From Calothrix sp. MO_192.B10 (lineage in GTDB: Bacteria; Cyanobacteriota; Cyanobacteriia; Cyanobacteriales; Nostocaceae), in assembly GCA_030065055.1 (NCBI GenBank), contig JASJDS010000002.1, forward strand, positions 62,001 to 126,000: 64,000 nt of DNA. The letters run 5' to 3'. Below are positions 50,182 to 64,000 of the stretch, one piece after another (within the stretch, counting starts at the first letter, position 1; each line of letters starts with the position of its first letter). The notes under the pieces are model-generated. The model made no database searches. It saw only the letters and a program-made list of their open reading frames with translations, and was not told the origin of the DNA. The position numbers and the translations under genes are program-made.

Positions 50182-52569
50182 TTACAATACCCCCTCCTTT
50201 GATATGGAAGCATTGAATTTTTTATTTGATTTTTCAATAAAAGGATACAAATCTACTAACTCTCGCCAAATAGTTTCGTATTGATACTTTTTCAGCAGAG
50301 ATATAATTAGATACTGTAATTTAAATTGTTCTGCGGAACATGTTTCAAATAAAACTAACAACATCAAGTTTCTATATATAGCTCCTCTATCTGGTATCCA
50401 AGGTGCTAAATTCCCAACATTAGTTAAAGCTGAACACCATGCGTCTTCAAATTTATCTTCAAGTAACCTTTGAGCGTTTTTGTCACTCAAGCGTACTCGA
50501 AAATAACGGTAATTGAGGATAGCTGTCTGTTTACCTCTTTCTAATAAACTGCGGATTTGATAAATTTGGGATTTGGGAAAATCTGCATCTTTTAAAGCTT
50601 GAGCTGTTGCCAATATCCCCCCTAATTCATGCAGCGTATAAGGTGAAGCATACAACTTCAACTTTTGCTTACCTGTGCCGAATTTTGTTAACCCATTGCT
50701 ACGAAACTCACTAATATTTGAAGAAATCATCGTCACTGATTTCATCACAAGAAAATCAACTGTTCCACCATAGTAATTATATTTTTTAAGTTCTTTAGCT
50801 CGCTTTTTAGCTGATTTAAGTAATTGATTAGTCAGTTTTTCTGCATAGTATATTGGTGTATCATCGGCTGCAATCAATACACCCGTTGACATACTTAGTT
50901 TACATTGGTGATCGTTAATTATTTGTTTTTCTCCATGATAACGATGGACTAATTTAGGATTATATTGTTGATCTGTTTTATACTCATCTCTTCGTTTTAA
51001 CAAGATTTTTTCAAATTCTTCCCCAATCGTTTTCGCAATTGCTAAAGCTTGATTTGCTGGGACAATTAACATTACGTCATCCCCACCAATAGTTAAAATT
51101 TCAAATGGATGAATCCAGCTACCATTGCGTTTTTGTTTATCTATATCTTTAATATTTTTTAGCAGATGTGGTTCTAGGTGTTTCCCTAAAGCGATATAAA
51201 CTGATTGCTCCGTAGCCTGAAAAATATCATCACTGAATTGTTGGTATTTTTCTGGTGTTTGAATCGTTTGAATATAACCACCCATATTATTACCATCAGC
51301 ATATATATATGCCACGAAACCATCTGGTTTACTAGCGTTACCAATTTCGATCAGAGAGCGGGCTTCCTCTGAATTTTTACAGTTTTTATAATATCTATCT
51401 GCTAATTCTTTGTTTTCTTCTTTTTTTAAAAAATCCTCAAACTTCTGCACCCAACTAGGTACATAAAAATCAACTTCGTCGGGTTTCCAATCAAATCCAG
51501 CTTGCTTGTACCAATTTTGAGAAGTCCCATCCCGTTTCGATATCTGTCCGACAATACGTTTGCGTGCGGAAGTTTCAGAAAACCAAGGTTGATTAGGAAG
51601 TTCTTCCGCTCTAGTCGCAGCAGAACGGTAATCACCTGCATCCCTTCGCAAATAGGGGTGAGTTTCAAACATTGGTGGATAACTACGGCTGTTGCGGTTT
51701 TCAAATTTATTACCACTTCGTCGCTGATTAAATAAGGATGCTAATTTTCCAACTAACTCGTTAAAACTTTTACGTTCTTGAAAAGCTTGTAGAGAGTCAC
51801 TGACATCAGGTTTAGTGAAATAGGCATCTATGAGGGGATGATTTAAATTTTGATGATAATGCTCCAACCATAAAGTTTTCTCTACCGGATTACTTAGCAA
51901 GCCAAAGCGAATTTCTAAGGGTTTAAATTTAGCACCGACAGCACAGGAGTTCGCGCTTAAAGTCTGATGGGTATAGCGTTTCTCTATTGCATTTGCTAAG
52001 TCATCGACAAAAGCTGGCGGACAAAAAGCTAATATATTTCCACCTGTGGAATAAATAATAAGTTCGGGTTTTAAAGCAGATTCTAAGTTACTAAAATGTT
52101 TTTGTAACCATTGGGATATAGATATTGATTTTTGAATTGGCTTTGAATTTGACTTGGGTACATTTTTATATTCGCCGAAAAAGATAGGTAAATCAATCAA
52201 ATTAATTTTATCTAGCAAAGCAGAAGCACCGCGAATATCTGGTAACTTGGATTCTTCAAACACATACTGCTTAATCTTCGTCGCACCACCGTAAACTAAA
52301 CCAATGCGAGAACCCCACAGCAAAGGATGCTTTTTGGTTAACTCCTCTAACTTATCCAATGTTTTCGGAAATTTATTAATATCCTCTAATTCTTCTAACT
52401 CTCTAACTGCATCAACAACATAAGAAACTTCCTGGGGAACCTCTTCCCCTTTACCCAATGCTTCCCGCATTCTCTGCAAAACTTCTAAATCATACTTGGG
52501 TATTTTCTCCTCACCCCAAGCTAAACACCAAGCAATACCAATAGATATCGGACGCATTTTCTCTACCAT
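50182..52569 (-). CDS. cas10: Cas10 large subunit (cyclase), no HD nuclease domain seen
   Basis: Large type III subunit that makes cyclic oligoadenylates when the complex binds target RNA. LPDIRGASALLDKI marks the first palm-like domain, the second palm has VAYIYADGNNMGGYIQ (about residues 420-430) and EILTIGGDDVMLIV, with the catalytic GGDD at residues 495-498. The first 80 residues contain no H-D motif, and none is found at the C-terminus, so the DNase activity is probably lost. 795 aa. It lies 15 bp after the Csx3-AAA gene. Confidence 0.88.
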   Translation of the reverse strand: MVEKMRPISIGIAWCLAWGEEKIPKYDLEVLQRMREALGKGEEVPQEVSYVVDAVRELEELEDINKFPKTLDKLEELTKKHPLLWGSRIGLVYGGATKIKQYVFEESKLPDIRGASALLDKINLIDLPIFFGEYKNVPKSNSKPIQKSISISQWLQKHFSNLESALKPELIIYSTGGNILAFCPPAFVDDLANAIEKRYTHQTLSANSCAVGAKFKPLEIRFGLLSNPVEKTLWLEHYHQNLNHPLIDAYFTKPDVSDSLQAFQERKSFNELVGKLASLFNQRRSGNKFENRNSRSYPPMFETHPYLRRDAGDYRSAATRAEELPNQPWFSETSARKRIVGQISKRDGTSQNWYKQAGFDWKPDEVDFYVPSWVQKFEDFLKKEENKELADRYYKNCKNSEEARSLIEIGNASKPDGFVAYIYADGNNMGGYIQTIQTPEKYQQFSDDIFQATEQSVYIALGKHLEPHLLKNIKDIDKQKRNGSWIHPFEILTIGGDDVMLIVPANQALAIAKTIGEEFEKILLKRRDEYKTDQQYNPKLVHRYHGEKQIINDHQCKLSMSTGVLIAADDTPIYYAEKLTNQLLKSAKKRAKELKKYNYYGGTVDFLVMKSVTMISSNISEFRSNGLTKFGTGKQKLKLYASPYTLHELGGILATAQALKDADFPKSQIYQIRSLLERGKQTAILNYRYFRVRLSDKNAQRLLEDKFEDAWCSALTNVGNLAPWIPDRGAIYRNLMLLVLFETCSAEQFKLQYLIISLLKKYQYETIWRELVDLYPFIEKSNKKFNASISKEGVL

Positions 52570-56940: not shown

Positions 56941-57420
56941 CCTTATACCAAGAGTAGTTTTTGTAACTATATATGGTTATAAATCAGTATTTATTTGCAA
57001 AAAAATCGGGCTTTTATTTTTAAGCGTGGTATTTAATAATACTTTTTCCTAAGTAAATTGATGCGATCGCGCCTTCTCCTAATTTTTGTTTTCGTCCCCT
57101 TGCGGGGAAATTGGGTTTTAGAACCTTGGGGCTAGGGCGTGTTTTCAAACTATGGTGTAGGTTGGGTAGAACGAAGTGAAACCCAACTGGGTGTACGGAA
57201 AATGTTGGGTTACTCTGCTCCAAGCCCCTTCGGGTCTACGTTCCTCAAACGCCACTTCTCTCAACGCGGGGAACCCGCGCACAAGAGTGGCTCCCCAACC
57301 TACAATTGATGCTAATTTTGGGTTGGAAAACAGACCCTAGTAGCAGGCGGAATGTGGGAAATCGCATCTGAGTTAAATGTCACAGAAGATACAGTCACCA
57401 TCACAGAAGATGTGACTGTT
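56941..57420. other. Intergenic with orphan CRISPR repeat and dispersed palindromes
   Basis: Carries the single CRISPR repeat (57088-57124), then AGGTTGGGTAGAACGAAGTG, AAACCCAACTGGGTG and later GGTTGGAAAACAG, a paired arrangement of TTGGGTT blocks seen in cyanobacterial spacers. No gene is supported. Confidence 0.5.
57088..57124 (-). CRISPR. Orphan CRISPR repeat, 36/37 identical to the main array
   Basis: A 37-bp copy reading GTTTTCGTCCCCTTGCGGGG then AAATTGGGTTTTAGAAC, differing from the array consensus by one base (position 5, C to T). The following CTTGGGG also follows the left-most repeat of the array at 61351. It lies 4.2 kb from that array, in the same orientation. No second repeat is near it. 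Confidence 0.8.
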
Positions 57421-57600
57421 TTGACACTCTCAGCTCTAAAGAGACTGAGATTCTCAGTTCATCGTCGCGACTTGCTCAACCAGGCTTGCACCCTTACGGG
57501 TTCGGCAGTCGCTCATGGGGGAGACCCCCAAGACCGCGCTGCCTCACCAAGAAGAGTAGAGGCCGCAACTTCCTGAGCGTTACTTTGGGGCTGCCCGCCC
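57421..57600 (-). ncRNA. Possible right-end guide (omega/reRNA-like) RNA region
   Basis: TnpB guide RNAs derive from the 3' end of tnpB and the transposon right end. Here this region on the minus strand is GC-rich and hairpin-forming (GGGGGTCTCCCCC, ACCCGTAAGGGTG, CTGAGAATCTCAG), consistent with such an RNA. With tnpB broken it may have no partner. No direct proof. Confidence 0.35.
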
Positions 57601-58726
57601 CTAGCTCTTTCAAGAATATTGATTGCTGCGTTGACATCTCGTTGAAGCACACAACCACAACTACACTTGTGGATACGTACTTTCAACTCTTTTTTGACCT
57701 TGGCTCCACAATTACTACAAAGCTGGGAGGTATTGTGGGGTTTTACAGCAATCGCTTGACGGCTGTGCTTCTGAGCAAAGTACTCTATCCACTGCCTAAA
57801 CTGGCTCCATGCTACATCATTGATGGATTTAGCAAAGCGGTGGTTTCTTACCATGTTCTTGACCTTTAAGTCTAGCCTGCGGCAAGCCGCTTCGCGTCTA
57901 CATAGGCGACTAAGTCGTTAGACTGTACAAGCGTGAGTGCCTCTGTCTTGACAAACTCGGTACGCTGCCTACTTACTCTTAACTGTTTTCGAGCATATAC
58001 TTTGCGGGATTTACTCCGTCTATTAGAACCTTTTTTGTGCTTGTAAATTCTGCGCTGAACGCGCTTAATATCGATTTCAGCTTTTCTAAAAAACCTAGGA
58101 TTATCTACATGATTACCGTTACTATCTGAATAGAAATACTCAAGCCCGACATCTAGACCGACTTGATTCCCTGTTGGTTTTAATGGCTTGGAGTGATCAA
58201 AATCAACAGAAAACTGGCAGTAATATCCATCAGCACGACGTACTAAACGCACTCGCTTAATTAACTTGACACCCAATGTGTGAATATCCCATTTACCAAG
58301 TAACTTAAGCTCACCAATTCCTTTTTTATCAGTAAAAGTGATACGCTTTTTAGTTGGGTGTAATTTCCATCCAGAGGTCTTGTATTCAACTGAGCGGTTA
58401 TCGTGTTGAAACCTTGGAAATCCTTTTTTACCAGGCTTATTGGATTTGCAATTATCGAAAAATCTCTGAATTGCAGCCCATGCTCTCTCGGCTGAAGCTT
58501 GTACAGCCATGCTATTTAGCTGTTTTACGAAATTAAATTCGTTGCGTAGTTCTGTTGAATATTTACTCAAAGCAAACCTGTTAATCTTGTTCTCTTTGGA
58601 TGTATCCATCCAATAACGTAAGCACTTATTACGTATGAACTGAGTGGTGCGTATAGCTTCTTCAATAGCCCGCAATTTTATTTTATTGGCTTTAACTTTA
58701 TATTCCAGAACTAGCAACTCCATCAC
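57513..58726 (-). pseudogene. TnpB-like RNA-guided nuclease, frameshifted by a 26-bp repeat insertion
   Basis: 5' part (57872-58726): helical N-terminus LRAIEEAIRTTQFIRNKCLR, PGKKGFPRFQ, and RuvC-I QVGLDVGLEYFYSD. 3' part (57513-57854): QWIEYFAQKHSR, zinc finger LCSNCGAKV...CSCGC and RuvC-III RDVNAAINI. The frame breaks at the RuvC-II motif (expected YEDLKVKNM; seen YVDAKRLAAG-stop), where a 26-bp insertion lies (57870-57900). The catalytic Glu is thus lost and translation ends early. The whole is otherwise full length. Confidence 0.8.
57870..57900. repeat. Small dispersed repeat insertion with 5-bp target duplication
   Basis: Core GCCTGCGGCAAGCCGCTTCGC (57875-57895) is flanked by GTCTA on both sides (57870-57874 and 57896-57900), fitting a target duplication. 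The core holds GCGGCAAGCCGC. Removing 26 bp restores the tnpB frame. Confidence 0.75.
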
Positions 58727-59008: not shown

Positions 59009-60712
59009 TCAAGATGAACAGCTATAGTGCGATACGCCACCAGCGTTTAAAAACGCCTTAGGTTTTAGACGATAGTATTTATCTTCTATCTCCTGTGATT
59101 GCTCATCATACGGATAGCTAAGTACTTCTTGCAACTCTTTGACTAAGGTGTAGTCACCCTGCATGGCTTGTTGGTAGGCGGGAACAATCAACCACTCTCG
59201 CCATGTATATTTTGGGTTAGTCTGTTTCATATTTTTTGATATCTCAGCCAGATTGCCGTCGTTCCTAACGAGGTCGCGCCAGCTTTTTAGCCAAGATTGC
59301 CATTGTTCATCGAGTTGTTGTGAAGTTGTAACATAGAAGCTCTTTTTCAATGGTTCCACATCGTCTGGTATATGGGATAACTCGCGGAAGAAAATGGTGT
59401 AATCTACCTCTGACTGGGTCATTAACTGCATTAATTTCTGAAATAGCTTTGGGTTATATTCAGTCAAGCCAAGTTTGGCCGCCCACATTTTTTGAATTTG
59501 TTTTTGCATTGCTTCTGCAAAGCCACGGCGTACTTGGTCAAAATGTTCTAAAGCTTCAGCATCTTCTGCAAGGAGCGGTCTCACAGCTTTCCAAAACATA
59601 TGATAATTCGCTTCTGCTGCGATTGGCTGATTGAAGAATGAAAAGTGTTTGCCGCCGCCAGTCCAAGGTTGAAACCAAGGGTCAAAAATTTCACAAAACC
59701 CAAATGGTCCATAGTCAAGGGTAAAGCCACCAGCAGCGCAGTTGTCACTATTAAAATTACCCTGGCAATAACCAATACGTAGCCAATTGGCCACCAGTGA
59801 AGTAAGACGCTGACGAAATAGCTTAGCCAACTCAACCAACTGATCTGCAAAACCAAGGTTTTGATTAATGTCGCTTTTGTATTCTCGCTCAATTAAATGC
59901 GACACAATCATGCTCAACTCTTCTAATGCTCTTGGATGAGCATTGCTGCGAGCGCGGCGGGCAAATAACTCTAGCTGACCAACGCGCAAAAAGGATGGTG
60001 CAACGCGAGTTGAAATGGCTACAGGATTGTCCACCAAAATATCAGGGTCAATGGAGTGGGAGTCTTGAGAATACCAAGGCCGGGTAACGGTCTCAGATTT
60101 AGAAACATACAGTGTCAAAGAGCGCGATGTTGGAACACCTAAAGCCTGCATATATTCTTGTGCTAGAAACTCACGCACACTTGAACGGAGTACTGCGCGC
60201 CCGTCGGCACCACGGCAATAAGGCGTTGGTCCACCACCTTTCAACTGCATTTCCCAGCGCTGGCCATTGATGATTCCTTCAAATACAGATATCGCCCGAC
60301 CATCGCCATAACCATTACCAGTACCGAATGGACAATTTTGGATATATTCGGTGCCATAAATCGACAGTGCATAACCAGTCGCCCAGCCAACCTGACGCAT
60401 AGGCTCATGAGCAGCAGAGAGATCACCAGAAAATACATGGCGAAATTTTTCATCAAGCGCCAGCTCATCGCTCAACCCAAGTTCATTAAAAAAAGTGCTG
60501 CTATGGGCTACATATTCTGGTTCTGCAAGCGGCGTGGGTGTCACAGGTACAAAATGACCAGAAAAAACCTGGCGGGCACGGTGATCATCACCATCTCCCG
60601 TGGCATCAAGATCGGCATTTAAGGTGTCCATCAGAGAATAATCCGCCAATTGCACAAACTCATCGAAGGTCGTTACGCAGGGCTCAACAGATGGTTTAGA
60701 TGGATATGACAT
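59009..60712 (-). CDS. selO: Protein adenylyltransferase SelO (YdiU) family
   Basis: Pseudokinase-fold enzyme that transfers AMP to proteins. Key segments: [20 protein letters not shown] with the nucleotide-binding glycines, [20 protein letters not shown], and [20 protein letters not shown] with the metal-binding Asn and DYG. The frame extends to 60778; I choose the ATG at 60712 ([10 protein letters not shown]), in line with the family. 567 aa. Base composition seems higher in G+C than most neighbours, and it sits between two mobile remnants, so it may be laterally acquired. Confidence 0.88.
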
Positions 60713-60783
60713 TGTTCCTAACGCCCGTATTGTCGGGAAAGATTCATGTTCATTTGAGGACTTTCTAGAGACTAGCATAATGA

Positions 60784-60813
60784 ACTACCCCGCCTCAAAG
60801 GAGGACGGGGTTT
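60784..60813 (-). repeat. Stem-loop, IS605-type right-end-like
   Basis: ACCCCGCCTC AAAG GAGGACGGGGT-like hairpin (with one unpaired base) followed on the minus strand by AGTTCAT, a motif common at the right ends of IS605/IS1341-type elements. It directly abuts the reverse-transcriptase fragment's stop. Confidence 0.5.
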
Positions 60814-61317
60814 CTAATTCCCCATCGGATTTGAGGTTGGATTTTTGACGTTCTGACTTTTGCAGAAAACTACAAAGTCATCTGCGTAGCGCACTATACC
60901 ACGATTTCCTAGGGTATGACCTTGTTTGTCGTAGCGAATGCCGAGAGCAGATTCCATACCATGCAAGGCTATATTTGCAAGCAAGGGGGAGATTATCCCG
61001 CCTTGGGGTACACCAGATTCTGTATCGTGAAAAACGCCCTTGTCTACGTATCCTGCCTTTAACCACTGGTGAATTAACTTCCAGCCGTTTTCGATAATTC
61101 CGCATCACGGTGCCTCATCAAAGGTTCACTATCGTTAACCCGTCAATGGTTTTACCCTAGCATTACGTCCACGTTTCGGCTTGTAGATTTTACGCACTTC
61201 CCTCTAGCTTTGAGACATCATAGTTACCTGTGATGCCCCTTCGGGCAGGTACTGGTTCAGGCATTAACCAGGAGTAGTTCTGAGGTACTCACTCTCGTGA
61301 GCGACTGATAGTCGCAC
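60814..61317 (-). mobile_element. Group II intron remnant with reverse-transcriptase fragment
   Basis: The 5' end, on the minus strand at 61317, is GTGCGACTATCAGTCGCTCA, matching the GTGYG start and first stem of group II introns. Domain I-type sequence follows (GAGGGAAGTGCGTAAA, AAGCCGAAACGTGG, CCATTGACGGGTTAACGATA). It then jumps into the middle of a LtrA-type reverse transcriptase (GWKLIHQWLKAGYVDKG, GVPQGGIISPLLANIALHG, RGIVRYADDFVVFC), ending at 60814. Domains II-III, most of the RT, and V-VI are missing. The intron 5' end falls inside a CRISPR repeat. Confidence 0.75.
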
Positions 61318-61721
61318 CCGTCCCCTTGCGGGGAAATTGGGTTTTAGAACCTTGGGGGTAAGCAGCCTCTGGATGAATGCCTACCTGTTTCCGTCCCCTT
61401 GCGGGGAAATTGGGTTTTAGAACTTGTAATTAATGGTCAAACCGTAAAGAGTGCACAGTTTCCGTCCCCTTGCGGGGAAATTGGGTTTTAGAACCCTTCA
61501 TATTTCCTTCAGGCTCCGAGGGACCTGGGTATTGTTTCCGTCCCCTTGCGGGGAAATTGGGTTTTAGAACTTCAGAAAATTTTTGTAGGAAAGTTTCCTA
61601 AGGAGACCGTTTCCGTCCCCTTGCGGGGAAATTGGGTTTTAGAACGGGGGGATGGAAAGGTGATATCCCTAAAAGAACCGTTGTGTTTCCGTCCCCTTGC
61701 GGGGAAATTGGGTTTTAGAAC
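61318..61721 (-). CRISPR. CRISPR array, six 37-bp repeats and five spacers
   Basis: Repeats at 61318-61350 (33 bp, cut by the intron), 61387-61423, 61458-61494, 61534-61570, 61609-61645 and 61685-61721; the last five are identical. Spacers are 36, 34, 39, 38 and 39 bp and all different. On the minus strand the repeat ends CAAGGGGACGGAAAC, with a CCCCGCAAGGGG hairpin and an ACGGAAAC handle as expected for Cas6 cleavage, so transcription is predicted leftwards with the leader near 61722-61900. cas6 lies 0.9 kb to the right. Confidence 0.93.
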
Positions 61722-62601: not shown

Positions 62602-63756
62602 ATGCCTCGTAGTCCTACACCAAAAACTAAAACCCGAACCAAATCATCTCCCTCCAAATCAACAAAAACAACTTCCCTAACCTGGGCAGATGAAACTGAA
62701 ATCATTGGTTTGGAATTGGCTCTGGTTCCTCCCGTCAACGCATCAATTTATCCCCAATATTCCACGGGTTTGCACGCTTGGTTCCTCAATTGCGTTCGTA
62801 ATATCGATCCCGAATTATCCGCATATCTGCACGACGGAGAATCGGAAAAACCCTTTACCATATCCCTCCTCGACGGAGAAATTGTCAGTAGTGGGACGCA
62901 GATTCAACTATCAAGCGATCGCATTTATCATTGGTGTGTCACTGGATTATCCCCACGGGTGACAAATTGGATGCGCCATTGGGCGAACAATTTACCCTCG
63001 GATTTGGAACTCAGTCACGTTCCCCTAAAAATTGTATCCTGTCGCATCATCCATCCTGCTACCACCTATTCCCAGTTACTCAATCAAGAAAATATTGGCG
63101 GTACGGTGTGCCTAAATTTTCTCAGTCCCACCAGTTTCCGGCGTAAAAAACATCATTTTCCCCTACCCTTACCCTTCAATATCTTTCAAAGTTATCTGCG
63201 ACGGTGGAATGATTTTTCCAATTTACCCGTTGAACCCAATGACTTTCTCAATTGGATTGACGAACAGGTGATCATCAATCGCCATCAAATTTCCTCCCAA
63301 AAAGTACTCGCCGGGAAAAAGGGTGCTGTTACTGGGTTTACGGGGGCAGTGGAATTAGGTTTAGCGCGAACCGCCAAACAAAATCCCGACTATTACCGCC
63401 TATTTTACGCCCTGGCAAACTTCGCCCCTTACTGCGGCACCGGACACAAAACCACCTTTGGCTTGGGACAAACCCGCTTAGGTTGGTCATCCAAACTAGT
63501 GCAGGAAGTACCCGACGTAGAATCAGTATTAGCAAAACGCATCGAAGACCTAACCGAAATTTTCACCCTACAACGGAAAAGACAGGGAGGACAAAGAGCT
63601 AGTGAAATTGCGGTGAAATGGGCAACAATTTTAGCTAGAAGGGAAATGGGCGACTCCTTAAGGGTAATATCCACCGATACAGGAATACCCTACGAAACCG
63701 TAAAAACCTACGTAAAATTAGCGCGGAAAGCCTTGAAGGAGGGAGTGAGGGAGTGA
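62602..63756 (+). CDS. cas6: Cas6 crRNA endoribonuclease with C-terminal helix-turn-helix
   Basis: Processes repeat RNA by cutting below the hairpin. A basic N-terminal tail (about 25 residues) precedes the RAMP folds; LNFLSPTSFRRKKHHFPLPL, IFQSYLRRWN, KGAVTGFTGAVELGL and the glycine-rich APYCGTGHKTTFGLGQT (about residues 275-292) are canonical Cas6. After it come about 80 more residues with a helical stretch (KRQGGQRASEIAVKWATILA) and a helix-turn-helix (SLRVISTDTGIPYETVKTYV). It lies 0.9 kb from the array and separate from the cas operon. Confidence 0.85.
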   Translation: MPRSPTPKTKTRTKSSPSKSTKTTSLTWADETEIIGLELALVPPVNASIYPQYSTGLHAWFLNCVRNIDPELSAYLHDGESEKPFTISLLDGEIVSSGTQIQLSSDRIYHWCVTGLSPRVTNWMRHWANNLPSDLELSHVPLKIVSCRIIHPATTYSQLLNQENIGGTVCLNFLSPTSFRRKKHHFPLPLPFNIFQSYLRRWNDFSNLPVEPNDFLNWIDEQVIINRHQISSQKVLAGKKGAVTGFTGAVELGLARTAKQNPDYYRLFYALANFAPYCGTGHKTTFGLGQTRLGWSSKLVQEVPDVESVLAKRIEDLTEIFTLQRKRQGGQRASEIAVKWATILARREMGDSLRVISTDTGIPYETVKTYVKLARKALKEGVRE

Positions 63757-63842
63757 GGGAGGGAAGGAGGGAAGGAGGGAAGGAGGGAAGGAGTGAAGGA
63801 GTGAGGGAGTGATGGAGTGATGGAGTGATGGAGTGATGGAGT
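63750..63842. repeat. Purine-rich short tandem repeats after cas6
   Basis: About 90 bp of GGAGGGAAG-type and then GATGGAGT-type units in a row, all purine on the plus strand with many GGG triplets. It begins within the last codons of cas6. It may form triplex or G-quadruplex structures. Confidence 0.8.
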
Positions 63843-64000
63843 AGGGGCTGGGTTTCCCCGCCCGGAGTGAGGGAATTATTTTCATGCTTGGTTGTGGGAT
63901 TTTCCCGTGGGGAGGCTAACTAGAAAATAGTTAAGAAGTGCCCAGTAGGGGCGCATTGCGTGCGCCCTTGAGAATTTCGTCATCAGCGCAAATTGTTAGT
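63843..64000. other. Intergenic end of window
   Basis: Contains GGGTTTCCCCGCCCGGAG and AGGGGCGCATTGCGTGCGCCC, short palindromes. No gene is seen before the window ends. Confidence 0.4.

Follow-up and report, generated by a model that had tools for sequence, protein, structure and literature searches.

A group II intron lineage in the CRISPR repeats of cyanobacteria, with a decayed copy in Calothrix sp. MO_192.B10

A split CRISPR array with an intron remnant

The window, i.e., the whole 64,000-nt stretch of the Calothrix sp. MO_192.B10 genome analyzed here, harbors a CRISPR array of seven repeats with spacers on the minus strand. The array leader is adjoined by cas6 (62602..63756, plus strand), the end of which overlaps tandem 8-nt repeats resembling GGAGTGAT (63723-63857), and cas10/cmr2 of type III-B (50182..52569, minus strand) is located near the array, beside further type III genes at 49-56 kb. 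Repeats 1 to 5 (61685..61721, the leader-side copy, 61609..61645, 61534..61570, 61458..61494 and 61387..61423, all on the minus strand), identified as sequence repeats, are five intact 37-nt copies of GTTCTAAAACCCAATTTCCCCGCAAGGGGACGGAAAC when read on the minus strand from 61721 to 61387. GGAAAC is the usual 3' end of cyanobacterial CRISPR repeats; as the repeats in the window end in this way, the minus strand was taken as the crRNA strand, with the leader towards 61722 and above.

Repeat 6 (61318..61350, minus strand) consists of the first 33 of the 37 nt, stopping after GGGGACGG at 61318 with the final AAAC absent, and a group II intron starts at 61317 (minus strand, GTGCGACTATCAGTCGC), directly abutting this truncated repeat, which thus forms the 5' exon of the intron with GGACGG as IBS1. 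The original prediction of an intron 5' end (GTGCGAC, from 61317) inside a repeat without its AAAC was therefore confirmed. It had also regarded this repeat as the terminal one of the array, which is incorrect: a degenerate seventh repeat, GACGAAAAC, was found at 57088..57124 (minus strand), 4.2 kb beyond repeat 6. The array starts again there, indicating that it was split; a degenerate end is frequent in trailer repeats.

Only two parts of the intron are left in the window. The 5' part of domain I (intron nt 1-237; 61081..61317, minus strand) shows 76-92% identity to full-length relatives and scores 24.2 bits against the Rfam group-II-D1D4-7 model, where the gathering score is 34. It is followed, after the loss of about 985 nt, by intron nt about 1220-1447 (numbering of the copy in genome G340), a reverse transcriptase (RT) fragment with YADD (60853..61082, minus strand) whose protein is 85% identical to residues 211-285 of the G340 RT. 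The EBS1 loop, which would come after nt 237, is deleted, and the copy's own pairing is thus unreadable. The intron portion stops near 60853 and not at 60814, as had been assumed; the stretch at 60779..60852 (minus strand), which truncates it, is copied elsewhere in the genome, with 97-100% identity to four other sites, and looks like an IS605/TnpB-type right end, a label given by eye. An intron 3' end was sought in the window and none was found, a single 15-nt match (E 0.03) being discounted. This copy is dead: it was cut short by other mobile DNA, the D5/D6 portion is deleted and the RT fragment alone is left of the protein.

Between the remnant and repeat 7, all on the minus strand, are a complete gene for SelO, a protein adenylyltransferase (59009..60778, Pfam SelO), a broken tnpB (57513..58726; its ORF 57872-58726 matches Pfam OrfB_IS605, and ORF 57513-57854 was taken by eye as its 3' part) and a dispersed repeat of MITE-like appearance (57129..57340, labelled by eye), partial copies of which are numerous in the genome. 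The SelO gene is a passenger in the split array, flanked by the IS605-like end and the broken tnpB, and the MITE-like repeat (57129-57340) stops 4 nt short of repeat 7, in the expected place of a spacer. Genome G414, of the same genus, carries the same array leader and the intron in the same repeat type, interrupted by other sequence; as array and repeat are the same, the insertion in the window is the older event. The interruption in G414 (L108/L145) lies near nt 121, and the intron of G409 (L165) is interrupted near nt 240 by a sequence that is IS605-like by eye; both points are close to the deletion point of the window copy.

Full-length relatives and the position of insertion

With the remnant as DNA query against 386 genomes of the phylum, matches were obtained in 24, many of them just short RT stretches. 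A search of these genomes for the junction string with 3 mismatches allowed, in which the reversed pattern also matched, gave 24 places in 19 of the 386: three are intron junctions (that of the window, that of G340 without a mismatch and that of G338 with 3), nine are ordinary repeats of the window's type followed by GAC (in four genomes) and twelve look like chance. The full-length relatives that had been sought for the remnant do exist, with the 5' end at exactly the same base. The copy in G340, 2452 nt in length, lies between GTTTCCATTAACCTTTTCCCCGCAAGGGGACGG and AAAC, followed by a spacer and the next repeat. Its protein contains RVT_N, RVT_1, GIIM and HNH domains and no Cas1 domain, the closest solved structure being the maturase 6me0 (E 1.8e-113), and its last 77 nt match RF00029 (D5/D6) end to end (51.0 bits, gathering score 40), with the match stopping at the final intron base. 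The lineage is thus a mobile, ORF-bearing group II intron, described as IIB/CL-like from RT kinship and from an RF02012 D1-D4-7 match below the gathering score. A second array of G340 holds a 327-nt derivative (L107, G340:C1:6628735-6629061) with both intron ends and without the ORF, which could be a non-autonomous form.

When the G340 intron was used as query, 49 of 217 genomes of the family matched at E 1e-10 or better, a count that includes sister introns and fragments without readable ends. No relatives of the intron were found in viral contigs. Related RTs occur in 1305 plasmid records; among the matches listed, two show 60-80% identity, those of Nostoc edaphicum pNe_2 (71.5%) and Nostoc sp. 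HK-01 (65.0%), and the others are below 60%. Among the named hosts are Calothrix parasitica NIES-267, Desmonostoc vinosum, Nostoc sp. KVJ20, Scytonema tolypothrichoides VB-61278, Mastigocoleus testarum BC008 and MAG UBA8803, the last (G722, according to position and sequence) belonging to another family. In G529 (L097), intron fragments lie within a long array of repeats ending in CCCCGAAAGGGGATTGAAAC, the 5' junction having been lost.

All 30 readable 5' junctions (22 genomes, the window included; most members chosen by similarity to the lineage, array-count loci included) lie directly after a repeat-type sequence, e.g., CCCC-loop-GGGGAYGG, so that 29 further 5' ends at the same repeat position support the predicted reading of an intron inserted in a CRISPR repeat, and introns in CRISPR-type repeats are present in 21 further cyanobacterial genomes. 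The core GGAYKG precedes 27 of the 30 junctions, the exceptions being G340b, G409 and G527, and a hairpin lies upstream of every junction, with at least 3 pairs in 30 and at least 4 in 29. The left half and loop of the repeat vary freely between junctions, and the stem also varies (TCTCC-GAAA-GGAGA in G409, AATCCCTATTAGGGATT in G422b). GTGCG, in agreement with the GUGYG start of group II introns, is the 5' end of 26 of the 30 members, including the window at 61317; deviant ends are found in G414 and G386 (GTACG), in the decayed G544 (AACCG) and in G527 (ATGCA). At the other side, all 21 readable 3' ends are CCCATT|AAA, followed in 20 cases by AAAC, the repeat's own end; the 3' exon, which could be read in relatives, is accordingly the AAAC of the repeat. 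Once joined, the exons reproduce a repeat exactly in 9 of 16 cases; the other seven show 1-3 mismatches. The 5'-end identity of the most distant members and that of the nearest sister introns touch at about 79%, and the G461 assembly is flagged as 38% contaminated.

Further repeat copies lie upstream of the intron in 26 of the 30 members, and G479 has four downstream. The copies in KVJ20 and G489b occupy solo repeats with no clear array nearby, and that of G527 lies at a contig end. In G340, copy a sits in an ACGG repeat, the other 12 repeats of that array being ACTG or ACTA. For G338, the idea that the insertion had inverted the hairpin loop was rejected, as 30 of 52 other repeats of the array already have TCAC. 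All copies are oriented in sense with the pre-crRNA, which the asymmetry of the site requires. Among the 16 copies with both ends, 13 have more repeats towards the leader than away from it (a laxer criterion makes G460 and G461 ties, and the cases are not independent). Such a bias fits a displacement of old insertions by newly acquired spacers, or else selection against those close to the leader.

Single origin, target recognition and movement

The eight RTs from CRISPR repeats group together in a 28-RT tree, set apart by a branch that has 100/99 support and was recovered in 100% of 200 bootstrap trees; the second identical copies G538a and G509a, the G470 plasmid copies, the second G056 copy and short fragments were left out. 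The RT coding sequence gave dN/dS values of 0.077-0.172 in five pairs (G460-G461 excluded), two of them saturated with dS >1. Among the 18 sister loci, G451 and G432 have no usable 5' end, and all 16 with readable 5' ends, G054a and G054b included, have no repeated sequence adjoining within the stretch examined; the sister 3' ends that were read are CCCGAC or CCCAAC, not CCCATT. Five of 14 sisters (L173, L090, L094, L101 and L138) start 18-19 nt after the first base of a TATAAT/TAGAAT-like box, and a sixth, L137, 29 nt after one, as if the sister introns settled outside CRISPR just behind promoters.

The region that reads the target was located by a scan of 12 sister introns (without G400 and G515, near-copies of G401, and without G054a and G054b), in which alignment columns from column 60 onward were compared with exon offsets and the exons were permuted for the 25 best windows. 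For exon positions -6..-1, one loop reaches 24.8, the highest score in 200 permutations being 11.0, and overlapping windows at this loop agree. The same loop in the CRISPR clade is closed by a stem and reads CUGUCC, CUAUCC or CAAUCC, i.e., C(U/A)(G/A)UCC. EBS1-IBS1 pairing is complete (6 of 6, one or two of the pairs being G-U) in seven clade A copies and leaves one mismatch (5 of 6) in five clade B copies, these 12 including both members of the identical pairs G538a/b and G509a/b; in G422b, where the repeat ends in GGATTG, all six are Watson-Crick pairs. The suggestion that EBS1 be read against GGACGG was thus borne out in the relatives, in which it pairs with GGACGG/GGATGG.

Among the 25 best windows in the sisters, one over the expected IBS2 zone (exon -13..-9) barely passed, scoring 16.0 against a control of 15.0, and no convincing EBS2-IBS2 pairing was found. 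The zone coincides with the hairpin loop and differs between identical introns (TTAC/TCAGC in G538, TCAC/TAAA in G509). GCAAGG, proposed originally as IBS2, is not supported, as that zone varies between repeats holding the identical intron. This variation implies that IBS1, AAAC and abundance suffice, or that the hairpin is sensed as such.

The former possibility would make the hairpin incidental, with EBS1-IBS1 and the 3' exon setting the site and the repeats serving as the most abundant copies of GGGAYGGAAAC. Good EBS1-IBS1 pairing is in its favor, as is the finding that 66 of 94 places with the core GGGATGGAAA in G470 lie within array-like runs, as counted from the listing. By the same kind of count, sites outside such runs amount to 28 of 94 in G470 and to 26 of 48 in G509, yet no readable lineage end was found at a GGGATGGAAA site outside an array-like run, including the 26 solitary sites of G509. 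The presence of the hairpin at all 30 sites carries less weight, as cyanobacterial repeats of this type have it anyway. Because the core also occurs outside arrays, it does not explain the exclusivity alone, and an extra cue (hairpin, transcription or access) must add to it; the solitary core sites without an intron favor such a cue, short of proof. Thus, an incidental hairpin is a doubtful explanation, if one that keeps some credit, and recognition of the hairpin itself is plausible.

Recent movement was evident from identical introns in arrays with different repeats: the two copies in G538 show 0 of 2458 differences and the two in G509 0 of 2388. In G470 (Nostoc edaphicum CCNP1411), the chromosome holds one copy and the conjugative plasmid pNe_2 (NZ_CP054694.1) three, two of which share one array. 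Differences were seen in 3 of 2391 aligned columns between plasmid copy 1 and its chromosomal counterpart, and in 5 of 2393 between plasmid copies 2 and 3. In addition, G422 carries nearly identical intron 5' parts in the very different repeats CCCCTCACGGGGATGG and CCCTATTAGGGATTG. The notion that such an intron could spread among repeats is thus upheld as movement between arrays and, on one plasmid, as two introns in one array. The 24000-50000 region of pNe_2 (L174) contains CRISPR arrays, the three introns and an RT-Cas1 fusion (RVT_1 and Cas1, 673 aa), and the arrays holding lineage introns flank the RT-Cas1 gene on both sides; this plasmid is a vehicle for intron spread.

An alternative hypothesis is that the introns are passive passengers, descended from one ancestral insertion copied by repeat recombination or whole-array transfer. 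Inheritance in place does occur, as the window and G414 have a common leader and hold the intron in the same type of repeat, and intron-bearing arrays are carried on a conjugative plasmid. However, recombination would bring the repeat along, and the identical introns of G538 and G509 occupy arrays whose left halves and hairpin loops are unrelated; the nearly identical 5' parts of G422 lie in the dissimilar repeats CCCCTCACGGGGATGG and CCCTATTAGGGATTG. In addition, the downstream flanks are unalignable, and upstream just stretches of 20-70 nt are shared among the matches listed. We consider this hypothesis very improbable.

The chance landing of an intron of ordinary specificity in one repeat would be a sufficient account of the window alone, which is a single event, and group II introns do retrotranspose to ectopic sites. 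The intron 5' end alone was also used as query, blind to the flanks; the exact pattern misses many members and its matches overlap the 30. Among genome_contigs (84,980 species) eight loci were obtained, with 7 of 7 readable junctions after such a repeat, one of them solo. Among 388 genomes of the order, seven places in 5 genomes matched: all 6 that could be read follow a repeat of this kind, and the remaining one is flanked by repeats but has its junction in an assembly gap. A chance insertion is refuted by this recurrence at the same base, together with the 30 of 30 readable junctions at one repeat position in 25 different sequences (the forms of the last 28 nt; 21 forms in the last 20 nt), and it is scarcely credible. 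That the remnant is instead a domesticated CRISPR-associated RT, as an RT fragment within a type III-linked array could suggest and as the descent of such RTs from group II intron RTs described in PMC5513706 would allow, is refuted by relatives with a complete ribozyme end, exact exon junctions and a maturase with HNH and no Cas1 domain, the RT-Cas1 fusion of pNe_2 being a separate gene, and it can practically be dismissed.

Proposed mechanism and comparison with known systems

Taken together, a CRISPR-repeat-specific retroelement lineage in cyanobacteria is well supported, and we estimate the probability at about 93% that the window copy is a decayed member of such a group II intron lineage acting as follows. 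The intron RNP, presumably lariat RNA with the RT-maturase-HNH protein, would pick a repeat by EBS1 pairing to the hexamer that precedes the site, in most cases GGAYKG; the upstream hairpin and the downstream AAAC are likely additional cues. Reverse splicing would take place between GG and AAAC, the protein would then copy the intron into DNA, and a new copy would arise in another repeat of the same or a different array. Cas6 cleavage leaves an 8-nt handle on the crRNA; splicing would bring GG and AAAC together again and thereby restore the repeat, the Cas6 substrate and this handle, ACGG|AAAC. Without splicing, Cas6 could still cut upstream, and mainly the next downstream crRNA would lose its handle. 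As the repeat would be restored by splicing, or mainly one crRNA lost, the array would pay little. The window intron would subsequently have lost its middle and 3' half, with other mobile DNA, the SelO gene and the dispersed repeat now before the last repeat. We give even odds to the stronger proposal that the RNA of this lineage splices itself from the crRNA precursor with the handle split in half, that crRNA maturation there depends on the intron and that the lineage is a living model of RT capture.

The role of CRISPR arrays is to keep a record of mobile elements and have them destroyed, and here a mobile element uses the repeat as a safe site. The persistence of a selfish intron would be explained by a site that is multi-copy, transcribed, non-coding and often transferred, at a small cost. 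The lineage predicts spliced crRNA precursors, of which, to our knowledge, none has been described. In addition, a retargetable intron with short EBS1 recognition and a hairpin would interest intron engineers.

The protein of PDB 6me0, which we take to be the maturase of TeI4h, a group II intron of Thermosynechococcus elongatus (subclass IIB1), is the closest solved relative of the lineage by protein sequence. TeI4h has an En domain, sits in a tRNA gene and is thought to splice from it, according to PMC2882425. A non-coding RNA gene as home is thus common to both, whereas TeI4h has a single tRNA site with EBS2-IBS2 and the present lineage occupies CRISPR repeats of many sequences with no constant IBS2. 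Group IIC introns insert beside terminator hairpins, and the target of the present lineage, a hairpin followed by a short IBS1, multi-copy and non-coding, is similar to theirs. Group IIC introns are not known to have an En/HNH domain. An HNH domain is present in the protein of this lineage, whose closest relative of solved structure is not a IIC protein either; any likeness in target would thus be convergent. In Streptococcus suis, according to PMC12479173, each intron family targets one conserved site in ICE genes, resembling the present lineage in its dedication to one conserved site of a mobile gene set; those targets are protein-coding, whereas the present one is the repeat of an immune array.

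Among the matches listed from full-text literature, which covers few subscription journals, we found no report of group II introns in CRISPR repeats. The CRISPR-associated RTs are similar to the present proteins in being of group II intron descent and linked to CRISPR arrays. These RTs are without ribozyme hallmarks (PMC5513706) and serve spacer acquisition, whereas the members of the present lineage are mobile introns inside repeats. PMC5513706 also suggests that RT recruitment began with a group II intron integrating beside a type III cas1. The entry of introns into CRISPR loci has a living example in this lineage, and, with its introns in the arrays on either side of an RT-Cas1 gene, the recruitment of intron RTs into CRISPR adaptation becomes testable.
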